This document shows, in pieces, positions 2,996 through 53,495 of a DNA stretch of 64,000 bases (position 1 is its first letter; each line of letters starts with the position of its first letter). Both the position numbers and the translations under genes were made by a program. The notes beneath the pieces were generated by a model, which was given only the letters and a program-made list of their open reading frames with translations, made no database searches and was not told where the DNA came from. This DNA is from Mucilaginibacter sp. L294 (GTDB lineage Bacteria; Bacteroidota; Bacteroidia; Sphingobacteriales; Sphingobacteriaceae): contig NZ_LGEK01000007.1 in the NCBI RefSeq assembly GCF_001636615.1, positions 1 through 64,000 of the forward strand, in the 5' to 3' direction.

Positions 2996-3000
2996 GTTTT

Positions 3001-3052
3001 TATTTTTAACCACAAAGAACACCAAGGGGAACCACAAAGGACACTAAGATTT
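3001..3052. repeat. Left inverted arm of the GxxExxY element
   Basis: Outer unit AACCACAAAGAACACC (3008-3023) and inner unit AACCACAAAGGACACTAAGA (from 3030). The reverse complement of 3441-3500 aligns along the whole arm with a few mismatches and small gaps. The arm ends at 3052, one base before the ATG. Confidence 0.85.
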
Positions 3053-3433
3053 ATGGATGAAAACGAATTGTCTAATCGTGTAATTGGAATTGCTATCGAA
3101 GTTCACAAAGCTTTGGGGCCAGGTTTGTTAGAGAGCGCTTACAAAGAATGCCTCTTTTATAAATTAGTTCAAACCGGATATTATGTAGAAAAGGAAAAAC
3201 CAATGCCTTTAATATTTGAAGAAGTAAGATTAGATTGTGGCTACAGGATTGATTTATTAGTAGAAAATAAGCTTATAATTGAAACCAAATGTGTGGAGGC
3301 AATAAATGATGTGCATCTTGCTCAAACACTTACTTACATGAAGTTAGGTAACTATAAACTGGGGTTACTTATGAATTTTCATGTAGTTAAATTAAAAGAT
3401 GGCATCAGGCGTATTATTAATGGAACTTTATAA
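3053..3433 (+). CDS. GxxExxY family protein (PD-(D/E)XK nuclease-like)
   Basis: 126 residues. The family-naming motif GxxExxY is G24-L-L-E27-S-A-Y30. A PD-(D/E)XK-like core follows: D67 in YRIDLLV, then E77-T-K79 in LIIETKC, and Q91 in the downstream helix. The family is widespread and of unknown biological role. From general knowledge it is placed in the PD-(D/E)XK superfamily, which suggests but does not prove nuclease activity. It stands alone between a glutamine synthetase gene and a kinase-like gene and is wrapped by inverted repeats, so it reads as cargo of a mobile element rather than part of either neighbour's pathway. The complete domain and intact motifs argue it is not decaying. 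Confidence 0.85.
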   Translation: MDENELSNRVIGIAIEVHKALGPGLLESAYKECLFYKLVQTGYYVEKEKPMPLIFEEVRLDCGYRIDLLVENKLIIETKCVEAINDVHLAQTLTYMKLGNYKLGLLMNFHVVKLKDGIRRIINGTL

Positions 3434-3440
3434 TAAATAA

Positions 3441-3500
3441 CTAATCTTAGTGTCCTTTGTGAAAAAAACTTTGTGCTCTTTGTGGTTAAAATAAATTTAT
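3441..3500. repeat. Right inverted arm of the GxxExxY element
   Basis: Inner unit AATCTTAGTGTCCTTTGTG (3443-3461), then an A-rich spacer, then outer unit TTTGTGCTCTTTGTGGTTAA (from 3470). It begins eight bases after the ORF's stop codon and mirrors the left arm in order and spacing. Confidence 0.85.
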
Positions 3501-3534
3501 ACAAGTATCTATGCAATTATAAACCCAATCTAAA

Positions 3535-50682: not shown

Positions 50683-52161
50683 TTATACTTTTGATTTTTT
50701 TGGTGATGAACAGATCCACAAGCCGGCAAAGGTAATTAATCCGTTTACAATGATGAGTTCGTTGTCAAAAACATACCCGCCTAAAAGCACTTTGGATTCG
50801 GTACTCAGGAAGTAGCATACCGCGGGCGATATTAAGCAGATAAAAGGAACCAGTTTATCCTTCACCTGCCTGTAACTCATAAACAGGCCAAAACTGTATA
50901 AGCCCAGCAACGGCCCATAGGTATATGATGCTACCTTGAATATGGCTGTTACCACGGCATCATTATTCAGGGCGTTAAACAAAATAATGGTCAGGAACAT
51001 CAACCCCGAAAACGCTATGTGCACATAATGCCTAACGTTTATCATTTTTTTGCTGTTCACATCGCCGCGTTTATTGAAGTTCAGGAAATCCACACAAAAC
51101 GAGGTGGTAAGAGCTGTTAATGCCGAATCGGTAGTGGCAAAGGTGGCCGCTGTTAGGCCCAGCATAAACACCATGGCCGGTACTATGCCCAGGTATTGCA
51201 GCGCGATGGTAGGATACAGGTAGTCGGTTTTTTCTACAGAAATACCGTTGCGTTGCGCGTACATATATAGCAATGCGCCAACGCTTAAAAAGAAAATATT
51301 GATTACCACGAATACGGCGGTAAAGCTGAACATGTTTTTCTGCGCTTCTTTAATGTTTTTAAGGCTCAGGTTTTTCTGCATCAGGTCCTGATCAAGCCCC
51401 GTCATACCCACGGTGATGAACAAACCACCCAAAAATTGCTTGCTCAGGTGGAAATGGCTCCCCAGGAAATCGTTAAAGAAGAAGATCTTGGAATAGCTGC
51501 TGTTCTTGATGGCTTCGGCAGCTTCAAATATATTGTAATTAAGGCTGCGGCAAATGAAATAGATAGACAGGAACACCGATGATACCAGGAACAACGTCTG
51601 CAAGCTATCGGTAATAATAATGGTTTTAAGGCCGCCTTTAAACGTGTACGACCAGATGAGCACCAAACAGATGAGCACCGTAACCGCGAAAGGAACGCCA
51701 TAGCTATCGAAAATGAACTTCTGCAATACGATCACCACCAAATAAAGCCTGAACGACGAGCCAATGGTACGGCTCAACAAAAAGATACCCGCTGCGGTTT
51801 TGTAGCTCCACGTGCCTAAAGCCTGTTCTATATAGCTATAAATAGAAGTGAGCTTTAAGCGGTAATATAAAGGCAGCAATACGGTAGCTATAATAATAAA
51901 GCCCGCCGCGTTGCCCAATACGAACTGGAAGTACGCGAACTGATCGCCGCTTGGCGCGCCCACCTTGCCCGGCACCGATATAAAGGTTACGCCGCTAAGT
52001 GCGGTGCCTATCATCCCGAAGGCCACCAGATACCATTTGGAGTTGCGGTTGGCCACAAAAAAGGTATCGTTATCTGATGATTTTTTGGAGGTGAGGTACG
52101 ATATCACCATCAATACCAAAAAATAACCAATGATGAAGGATAGTAATATTGCCGGCGACAT
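50683..52161 (-). CDS. Sodium:solute symporter (SSS) family transporter
   Basis: 492 residues with about 13 hydrophobic helices. GMIGTALSGVTFISVPGKVG in the first half and GTWSYKTAAGIFLLSRTIGS are typical of SSS family Na+-coupled transporters. TDSLQTLFLVSSVF and TTDSALTALTTSFCVDFL follow. It starts a two-gene operon with the GH20 hexosaminidase 19 bp downstream, so the likely cargo is an amino sugar or its derivative. Substrate is inferred from context only. Confidence 0.9.
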   Translation of the reverse strand: MSPAILLSFIIGYFLVLMVISYLTSKKSSDNDTFFVANRNSKWYLVAFGMIGTALSGVTFISVPGKVGAPSGDQFAYFQFVLGNAAGFIIIATVLLPLYYRLKLTSIYSYIEQALGTWSYKTAAGIFLLSRTIGSSFRLYLVVIVLQKFIFDSYGVPFAVTVLICLVLIWSYTFKGGLKTIIITDSLQTLFLVSSVFLSIYFICRSLNYNIFEAAEAIKNSSYSKIFFFNDFLGSHFHLSKQFLGGLFITVGMTGLDQDLMQKNLSLKNIKEAQKNMFSFTAVFVVINIFFLSVGALLYMYAQRNGISVEKTDYLYPTIALQYLGIVPAMVFMLGLTAATFATTDSALTALTTSFCVDFLNFNKRGDVNSKKMINVRHYVHIAFSGLMFLTIILFNALNNDAVVTAIFKVASYTYGPLLGLYSFGLFMSYRQVKDKLVPFICLISPAVCYFLSTESKVLLGGYVFDNELIIVNGLITFAGLWICSSPKKSKV

Positions 52162-52248
52162 AATTTAGTTTTTACAGGTGTATTAAGCAGATTGCCCTAA
52201 AGTAGAAGTTAGGATCAGCAAAAACAAAATTATTTAGTTGTACGATGG

Positions 52249-52272
52249 TTATTTTAACCACAAAGGGCACAA
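52249..52272. repeat. Solitary outer arm of the GxxExxY element family
   Basis: TTATTTTAACCACAAAGGGC continuing ACAA matches the outer unit of the arms at 3001-3052 and 3441-3500 (TATTTTTAACCACAAAGAAC), with the AAAG rather than GAG variant. No partner or ORF is present. Confidence 0.65.
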
Positions 52273-52299
52273 TAAACATCATAAAATCAATCGTGATAA

Positions 52300-52439
52300 T
52301 TAACCACAGAGAACACTGAGAAAAAACAACAGAGAGCACAGAGATTAAATTATTGCAAAGATTTGTGTTCTCTGTGAAAAAAACGCTGTGCACGCTGTGG
52401 TAAAAAACTATAAATACTATTTAATTAACAATACTTTTC
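52300..52439. repeat. ORF-less repeat element, copy A
   Basis: Left arm TAACCACAGAGAACACTGAG plus ACAGAGAGCACAGAGATTAA, a ~15 bp centre, and right arm TTTGTGTTCTCTGTG plus GCTGTGCACGCTGTGGTAAA. It has the same two-unit inverted design as the GxxExxY element but no ORF. It continues through a 30+ bp flank that also recurs in copy B. Part of the 541 bp gene-free interval 52162-52703. Confidence 0.85.
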
Positions 52440-52446
52440 TTCGCCG

Positions 52447-52531
52447 TTGTTGGTGTTGTCACCAACAACATTTAGGACGGCCAACTTGCAAGATTGGATG
52501 CATGGCGGCTTTTTGGTGACAACACCAACAA
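52447..52531. repeat. Short element with 17 bp terminal inverted repeats
   Basis: TTGTTGGTGTTGTCACC (52447-52463) is the exact complement of GGTGACAACACCAACAA (52515-52531). The 51 bp interior has a quasi-palindrome CCAACTTGCAAGATTGG. It lies exactly between copies A and B of the other repeat, so it appears to have inserted there. Confidence 0.7.
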
Positions 52532-52553
52532 GGGAGAAATTAACCATAAACAT

Positions 52554-52695
52554 TTTTACCACAGAGAAGACTGAGAAAAAACCACAGAGAGCACAGAGAT
52601 TAAAATAGTTGCAAAACTTTGTGTTCTCTGTGAAAAAAACTCTGTGCACTCTGTGGTAAAAAAACTATAAATACTATTTAATTAACTATACTTTT
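52554..52695. repeat. ORF-less repeat element, copy B
   Basis: Nearly identical to copy A across arms, centre and the downstream flank ACTATAAATACTATTTAA. Copy A ends ATACTTTTC where B ends ATACTTTTG. The flank identity indicates a segmental duplication rather than two independent insertions. It ends 8 bp before trpA. Confidence 0.85.
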
Positions 52696-52696
52696 G
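52689..52696 (+). promoter_or_regulatory. Candidate -7 element for trpA inside repeat copy B
   Basis: TACTTTTG fits TAnnTTTG and ends 7 bp before the trpA ATG. The equivalent bases in copy A are TACTTTTC, one mismatch from consensus. No -33 TTG is seen at the usual spacing, and initiation would leave almost no leader. Confidence 0.4.
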
Positions 52697-52703
52697 CAAG
52701 CAA

Positions 52704-53495
52704 ATGGCTAATACTACTGCATCAATGAACCGATTGAACCAACTTTTTGCAACAAAAAAGGAAAACCTGCTTTCTATATATTTTACAGCCGGTTACCCGG
52801 AGCTTAATACTACTGTTGATATTGCCGAAGCGCTGGAAAAAGCGGGCGCGGATTTCCTAGAGATAGGTTTCCCATATTCAGACCCGGTTGCGGATGGGCC
52901 AACTATTCAACATAGCTCACAAACCGCGCTGGATAATGGCATGAACCTGAACCTGCTGTTTGAACAGTTGAAAGACTTGCGTAGCCGTGTAAATATCCCG
53001 GTGCTGTTAATGGGCTATGTTAACCCTATTGTACAGTATGGCGTTGAGCGTTTTTGCAAAGCAGCAGCAGCTGCAGGGGTAGATGGCATCATCGTGCCCG
53101 ACCTGCCTATGTATGAGTATGAATTGCTGTACAGTAACCATTTTACAGATAACGGCCTGAGCAATATATTCCTGGTTACGCCGCAAACATCTGAGGATCG
53201 CATCCGTAAGATTGATGAATTAAGCAACAGCTTTATCTACCTGCTATCGTCATCATCTATAACCGGTGGCAGCCTACAGCTTACGGATAGCATTGAAGGT
53301 TATTACAACCGTATTAAAGCCATGGAGCTGAAAAATCCAACCATTATTGGTTTCGGCATCTCAGATCACAGATCGTTCAGTAAAGCCTGCGAATACGCTA
53401 ACGGAGCCATTGTGGGCAGCGCATTTGTGAAGCTATTGGCCGAAGATGATTATATGAGCAAGATCCCGGCGTTTATTGGCAGTATTAAAGCTTAG
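52704..53495 (+). CDS. trpA: Tryptophan synthase alpha chain
   Basis: 263 residues. Cleaves indole-3-glycerol phosphate and channels indole to TrpB. FLEIGFPYSDPVADGPTIQ contains catalytic Glu53 and Asp64, LLMGYVNPIVQYG and GVDGIIVPDLP follow, and TNIFLVTPQTS-like and GFGISDHRSF complete the barrel. No trpB or other trp gene is in this window; the upstream neighbour is an opposing transporter and repeats. All residues look intact. Confidence 0.96.
   Translation: MANTTASMNRLNQLFATKKENLLSIYFTAGYPELNTTVDIAEALEKAGADFLEIGFPYSDPVADGPTIQHSSQTALDNGMNLNLLFEQLKDLRSRVNIPVLLMGYVNPIVQYGVERFCKAAAAAGVDGIIVPDLPMYEYELLYSNHFTDNGLSNIFLVTPQTSEDRIRKIDELSNSFIYLLSSSSITGGSLQLTDSIEGYYNRIKAMELKNPTIIGFGISDHRSFSKACEYANGAIVGSAFVKLLAEDDYMSKIPAFIGSIKA

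Follow-up and report, generated by a model that had tools for sequence, protein, structure and literature searches.

Two short hairpins that lie between a sodium:solute symporter gene and trpA, here termed copies A and B, are well supported as duplicated GxxExxY-family elements without a gene. The explanation that we favor as a whole, and consider probable, is that both copies are duplicated ORF-less relics of GxxExxY elements, the nuclease of which reads the words repeated in the arms and has spread these arms. The window, i.e., the whole stretch of 64,000 nucleotides that was analyzed, is contig C264 of a 5.25 Mb genome, and the features around the two copies are as follows:

50683..52161, minus strand: sodium:solute symporter family gene, divergent neighbor
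52254..52270, plus strand: partial extra left arm, TTAACCACAAAGGGCAC, 5' of A
52300..52404, plus strand: copy A, ORF-less two-unit inverted hairpin with CACARAG words and a loop of ~20 nt
52405..52438, plus strand: copied flank of A, a copy of the trpA upstream region
52440..52538, no strand: second, unrelated family, two REP-like hairpins in inverse order, TTGTTGGTG-TTGT-CACCAACAA
52555..52660, plus strand: copy B, ORF-less two-unit inverted hairpin, holding the position of the relatives' single copy
52661..52695, plus strand: trpA upstream flank common to B and A
52704..53495, plus strand: trpA, tryptophan synthase alpha chain, with its ATG at 52704

Local alignment of A (52300-52438) with B (52555-52695) gave 130 identical columns out of 141 (92%) with 2 gap columns, in agreement with the preliminary description of two nearly identical copies with common arms, center and flank. 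That description had placed the pair at 52300-52695; the two copies were indeed found there, and it had missed the REP-like doublet at 52440-52538 and the left arm at 52254-52270. The common flank 3' of the hairpin measures 34-35 nt and reaches into the trpA upstream DNA, and the copied flanks (52405-52438 and 52661-52695) match at 97%. The flank of A ends in TACTTTTC and its equivalent in B is TACTTTTGC; the Bacteroidota -7-like motif TAnnTTTG would be broken in the flank of A. No ORF was found inside A or B. Compared with dinucleotide shuffles, copy B folded with z scores of -9.06 as RNA and -5.44 as DNA, and copy A with -6.00 and -2.86, respectively. A covariance model built from seven other ORF-less copies of the same genome recovered B at an E value of 3.2e-18 and A at 5.8e-13. 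In addition, ACCACAGAG occurred 18 times in the window with at most one mismatch, a count that takes in sites beyond A and B, compared with a mean of 6.3 and a maximum of 13 in 100 shuffles.

The genus was searched with 52000-52900 in 120 genomes, our own included, and the symporter-trpA gap was read by eye in 16 genomes (own included; 30 loci), with both sides on one locus. A single hairpin was present in G044, G006, G100, G021, and G067, and G114 showed a decayed right half; G057, G082, and G065 kept a short right-end remnant at most, G119 and G043 had other sequence, and no hairpin was seen by eye in G028, G004, G075, and G039. The two-copy state was restricted to our own genome among the 16 gaps read. 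Since one hairpin occupies the same site in five congeners, A and B are read as a duplication that includes trpA upstream DNA, as the preliminary description had argued from the flank. On a tree of the relatives (14 genomes; at most 8.2 kb of sequence, largely coding), the carriers at this site clustered in a single group of eight genomes (support 85/95) that also includes G114 (decayed) and G028 (none), and the simplest reading is one gain with later loss. Tandem copies were also found at three further sites of the own genome, namely L021 (unit of 112 nt), L027 (118 nt), and L017 (173-185 nt), the repeat including some flank; these hairpins are thus prone to duplication of this kind. Identity among 24 copies was 79 to 99% within sites and reached 80% at most between sites, so no recent burst is visible. 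By eye, a right arm of a GxxExxY element in G028 (L210) is tandemly duplicated together with its downstream flank, another A/B-like case. That A and B were instead two independent insertions into similar sites is very improbable: the left end of their identity does coincide with the element terminus TTAACC, but the identity runs 34-35 nt into trpA upstream DNA, the flank is missing from the other matches in the genome, with the exception of a single weak one at 68% (C5), the relatives hold one copy only, and tandem copies with flank recur at L017, L021, and L027.

The DNA between A and B belongs to a different palindrome family. Its REP-like doublet has a 41-nt spacer and many copies in the genome; many genome matches to the interval concern this part only, and 13 of 19 loci fetched for the palindrome showed such a doublet. 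The genome has three Y1_Tnp genes; in the search for a RAYT partner of the middle palindrome, one weak palindrome match was found, in one of the three Y1_Tnp loci. As for the CACARAG hairpins, one of the model matches listed lies on a contig with a Y1_Tnp gene (C21, ~2.4 kb away). The doublet also adjoins a CACARAG hairpin at L029, where, by eye, positions 1279-1450 hold an isolated right half, the spacer of which matches the left arm of a hairpin ~300 bp upstream, and a REP-like doublet lies between the two, as at A/B.

The gene-bearing counterpart of A and B lies near 3.0 kb in the same window, 3' of a glutamine synthetase gene, and consists of three parts:

3004..3052, plus strand: left arm of the ORF-bearing GxxExxY element, CACAAAG words
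3053..3433, plus strand: GxxExxY protein gene (TIGR04256 / PF13366) with RecB/Cas4-like active-site residues
3443..3491, plus strand: right arm of the GxxExxY element

The encoded protein scored 139.4 bits against TIGR04256 (cut-off 35) and is thus a GxxExxY member. The arms of A and B share their word family and layout with the arms flanking this gene, which bears out the earlier view that they keep the two-unit inverted design and the words of the 3.0 kb element. That view had also regarded A and B as MITE-like derivatives from which the ORF had gone. Loss of the gene was seen at the glutamine synthetase site, where 18 relatives were read or attempted by eye, and none of the five single-copy trpA orthologs contained an ORF. 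At the glutamine synthetase site, both the element and its gene are present in G021, G063, and G028, the gene of the element is broken by frame changes or stops in G006 and G077, and G025 has a RAG-clade gene beside glutamine synthetase with its other flank elsewhere. In G044 (L209), the two arms survive along with 21 nt from the ORF start and an ORF end that can still be aligned, the middle being gone; this is an ORF-less derivative in place, seen directly. The same site in G067, G119, G043, and G096 carries a GxxExxY gene with GATT-word arms, the genes of G067, G119, and G096 falling on the non-RAG side of the protein tree. Traces of GATT arms were seen in G065, G082, G086, and G114, and none in G015; no CACARAG-type arms were found in G100 and G004, G100 keeping a short AATCCCGGT that resembles a GATT-arm end. 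The two arm types or their relics indicate that the site has been occupied more than once. This gap (window 2996-3534, L205-L222) may be an insertion hot spot or a place of repeated replacement.

In the genome as a whole, at least 36 ORF-less places were counted, as against three GxxExxY genes. The 36 places comprise 28 listed covariance-model matches and eight directly listed copies outside them; the model counts, for which at most 33 candidates were scored per genome, are rough, and some places were counted on both strands. Two of the three genes, at 3.0 kb and at L009, have CACARAG arms and the third (L010) has CGCAAAG/CGCAGAG arms. At L010 (contig C46) the GxxExxY gene lies between two ORF-less CGCAAAGACGCAGAGACGC-word hairpins, which are direct repeats. 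Each arm of the full element contains three to four copies of the family word, in pairs 9 nt apart, and a hairpin has up to eight words. Genomic context was recorded for 22 entries, with A and B counted apart and two gene-bearing elements included. None lay inside an ORF of at least 100 codons, and four overlapped a called end by 4-37 nt (mechanical ORF calling); 11 were between codirectional, six between convergent, and five, including A and B, between divergent genes. A and B resemble MITEs in being short, ORF-less, dispersed, and multicopy, with inverted ends. TTAA stands at both hairpin ends and is a candidate target, the empty and filled sites being too diverged to place the join; neither a target duplication nor an excised form was demonstrated, and no transposase of known type was found. 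In the same genome, six of seven TIGR02436 four-helix-bundle genes (L079-L085) lie within inverted, word-repetitive arms that score above five shuffles, each with a different word family, e.g., GAGATTTGAGACGTTAGATATGAGA and TAGTCCATGGACCATAGTCGATAG, and L083 is without such arms. The arm-gene-arm design thus occurs in a protein family unrelated to GxxExxY.

Filled and empty sites were also compared elsewhere, by searching the joined flanks of four own hairpins against eight relatives. The prx site (L014) was filled in G044, G021, G067, and G006 and empty in G028, G114, and G004, the last three having a terminator-like GC stem in place of the hairpin. This distribution poorly fits a simple single gain on the relatives' tree, and it could reflect either one gain with at least two losses that left an outgroup-type stem, or repeated insertion or interspecies exchange. 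L018 was filled in G044 and G067 and empty in G021, G028, and G100, and the spacing in G114 suggests a filled site. L020 was filled in G044, half decayed in G021, and empty in G028 and G114. At L012, G100, G114, and G006 showed other repeats, none of them of the CACARAG hairpin family.

We then consider whether the hairpins are host transcription or RNA-processing signals, such as terminators or RNase III sites, in some of which a GxxExxY gene merely nests. This reading is unlikely. It draws on the strong predicted RNA folds, on the prx hairpin, the place of which is taken by a GC stem in three relatives, on the L018 hairpin that lies directly 3' of a GC stem with a T-run, on the 17 of 22 entries that adjoin one or more gene ends, and on three R positions at which Watson-Crick pairing exceeded that of shuffles (73 vs. 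56, 60 vs. 48, and 59 vs. 47%). On the other hand, A and B sit between divergent genes, and 77 of the 120 genus genomes had no covariance-model match at the search sensitivity used. Pairing is hardly maintained: variable paired positions at 59 sites could pair in 61.1% of cells as compared with 57.8% after shuffling, a figure from one strand per site that is generous because the alignment was fitted to the structure, and RNA covariation in seven copies showed no clear excess over shuffles. The refuting case named in the preliminary description, a general transcription-termination sequence unrelated to the GxxExxY arms, found no backing either, since 52162-52720 contained no terminator-like site and five of the 22 entries lie between divergent genes. 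An intrinsic terminator in the strict sense (GC stem followed by a T-run) was rejected on the same count, although terminators occur in the vicinity of the prx and L018 sites. Eight Rfam matches with E values up to 1 all lay far below the gathering scores and were taken as chance.

Conservation distinguishes words from pairing as well. Hairpins of the own genome were compared with their orthologs at four sites, using word masks drawn up after the arms had been viewed. In these 17 comparisons, which are non-independent since A and B share orthologs, identity was 89.6% at word positions (717/800) and 71.8% at the R base (79/110), compared with 72.4% in the spacers (595/822) and 73.4% in the flanks (1255/1710). 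Words more conserved than spacers, flanks, and pairing favor a protein that reads DNA words over an RNA hairpin. These sequence comparisons point to a constraint mainly on the words and hardly on pairing, in which case a protein would read the word arrays.

The link between arms and protein was examined across the genus, in which 93 of 120 genomes have a GxxExxY gene. We examined 92 loci taken from the best-scoring matches (three own, 29 brought in, and 60 fetched). The GxxExxY motif was present in all 92 ORFs, and the inverted-repeat score of the flanks exceeded all five shuffles in 84 loci, by at least 10 in 71. Word labels, for which the rule was fixed after the arms had been viewed, could be given to 87 loci: GATT to 50, RAG to 23, GAATT to 12, and CACCGATT to two, with five unclear. 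On the protein tree, RAG against the rest required three changes (minimum of 17 in 200 shuffles), and all five label groups required 12 changes as compared with a shuffle mean of 37.9. A branch with support 99 separates 27 RAG-side loci from the other 65, and none of the 23 RAG labels falls among the latter. The exceptions on that side are L089, L093, and L147, labeled GATT, and L094, unclear; L089 and L147 have RAG words in one arm only. The 9-nt spacing accounted for 72 of 122 word spacings in own ORF-less copies, 35 of 92 in gene-bearing RAG arms, 151 of 361 in GATT arms (81 at 8 nt), and 37 of 61 in GAATT arms (11 at 8 nt). A spacing of 8-9 nt therefore recurs in three different words, far above shuffled arms.

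A scan beyond the genus set with RAG-clade proteins gave at least 80 loci, 79 of which could be scored. Among the matches listed, the repeat score exceeded five shuffles in 60 of 79, and at least two inward RAG words stood in both arms in 42 of 79, the opposite sense occurring in eight. Among the clear cases are single records under the names Treponema, Planctomycetota, Tolypothrix, and Alphaproteobacteria, although several are metagenome bins that may be misbinned. Model matches were likewise associated with the clade, being present in 15 of 17 genomes with a RAG-side gene among the 92 loci and in 28 of the 103 others (p = 2.4e-6; 6.0e-6 without the own genome, which is one of the 17), p-values that ignore relatedness, and unexamined genes may hide among the 103. 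Hairpin matches in genomes in which no GxxExxY gene was found occurred in G100, G047, G082, and G118. G047 is 63% complete, and G082 and G118 had only two and one weak model matches, respectively. In G100, a genome 99% complete, the model matched 25 times and no GxxExxY gene was found; its hairpins appear stranded.

These results bear on another reading, in which the arms are a genomic parasite spread by other machinery (e.g., RAYT or recombination) and the GxxExxY genes are caught passengers. The L010 gene flanked on both sides by ORF-less hairpins in direct repeat, the four-helix-bundle genes of this genome, which are enclosed by inverted word repeats of their own, and the hairpin-rich G100 without the gene would all suit it. 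The word around a mere passenger should vary freely, and the match of word to protein clade across the genus counts against it, as do the RAG words that flank the protein in records of other phyla; we regard this reading as improbable. Our preferred explanation has points against it as well: neither a target duplication, an excised form, nor a known transposase came to light, G100 and three other genomes have hairpins although no gene was found in them, no recent burst is visible, the prx site fits poorly, and the labels of L089, L093, and L147 run counter to the pattern. Arm and protein may also co-occur merely by joint inheritance as one piece.

We predict that the GxxExxY protein is a minimal nuclease resembling Cas4 and RecB. 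Invariant positions in 44 sequences are H18, G22, G24, E27, Y30, D67, E77, K79, Q91, and Y95, plus four more, and the pattern H, E, D, ExK, and QxxxY is that of RecB/Cas4-type nucleases; the protein thus shows the RecB-type nuclease core. The AlphaFold2 model of the 3.0 kb protein had a pLDDT of 94.6 and a pTM of 0.88. Foldseek gave no match at E 0.001, its best being the Cas4 protein SSO0001 (4ic1) and lambda exonuclease. VIA-align placed SSO0001 (4ic1) first with a Z score of 9.9 and an rmsd of 3.5 over 101 residues, followed by 8.1, where an ordinary best Z is 7 to 8 according to the tool's own note. Cysteines of the Cas4 iron-sulphur type were absent from the invariant and nearly invariant columns of the 44 sequences. 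The protein had no match in PADLOC, nor in a PDB sequence profile search up to E 1. In the literature covered, which excludes subscription journals and preprints, a search by name returned only single mentions of GxxExxY and no description of its flanking arms, ORF-less copies, or word-clade link; the raw arm words returned only unrelated papers among the best matches.

The probable course of events is as follows. A full element comprises two inverted word arms around a gene for a ~125-aa Cas4/RecB-like nuclease. Internal deletion, as at the glutamine synthetase site of one relative, would leave a gene-less hairpin that persists in intergenic DNA. From its presence and absence in relatives, one hairpin would have inserted between the symporter gene and trpA in an ancestor of the species group. 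In the own lineage, comparison shows that this hairpin and the trpA upstream flank were duplicated, with the REP-like doublet now at the join. The nuclease of the matching clade would recognize its own word array as double-stranded DNA and may have acted both in cis and in trans, spreading the arms, and A and B would now be mostly passive relics. The likeliest mechanism, as we infer, is word reading and arm movement by the nuclease.

If so, a common gene family without an assigned function and an equally common intergenic repeat would belong to a single entity, the recognition code of which can be read, in that the words differ, the 9-nt spacing is the same, and each word is tied to a protein branch. 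Such a code makes the function of GxxExxY proteins directly testable in binding and cleavage assays with defined DNA. It would account for many intergenic repeats that lack annotation, and it may provide a small element moved by a Cas4-like nuclease, linking mobile elements to CRISPR-type nucleases. More tentatively, and with considerable doubt, GxxExxY elements could be a cross-phylum class of minimal mobile DNA, the mobility enzyme of which, a 125-aa Cas4/RecB-like nuclease, recognizes a word that is specific to its clade and recurs every 9 bp; hairpins without a gene, A and B among them, would be derivatives mobilized in trans or stranded, and the word-array design would have been adopted by unrelated four-helix-bundle genes.

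Several known systems offer comparison. First, the 3.0 kb gene is a member of the GxxExxY family (TIGR04256 / PF13366, PDDEXK_3), and its arm words are those of A and B. The protein shares the conserved H, E, D, ExK, and QxxxY with the Cas4, RecB, and lambda-exonuclease nucleases, and its best structural matches are SSO0001 and lambda exonuclease; Cas4 proteins have an iron-sulphur site, whereas the GxxExxY protein is 126 aa long without an invariant cysteine. Second, REP/BIME sequences with RAYT also combine many intergenic palindromes with few genes for the partner enzyme. RAYT is an HUH (Y1) enzyme, whereas the partner here is of the PD-(D/E)XK type. REPs measure 20-40 bp (PMC3733652), whereas hairpins of the A/B type are ~100 bp each with up to eight words. 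Third, 23S rRNA intervening sequences, of which one report describes a small selfish example 428 nt long and carrying an ORF (PMC4990558), were rejected as an identity for A and B, which lie between symporter and trpA genes with no ORF inside; compared with those that carry an S23p ORF, A and B stand outside rRNA, belong with another protein, and hardly keep their pairing. Finally, bacterial MITEs are, like A and B, short, gene-less, and dispersed, with inverted ends. MITEs can be derived from a gene-bearing element by internal deletion, as seen at the 3.0 kb site in G044; no ORF-bearing ortholog was found at the trpA site. A and B differ from them in that no target duplication was seen, in that their ends are arrays of words spaced by 9 nt, and in that their partner is a Cas4/RecB-like nuclease instead of a known transposase.
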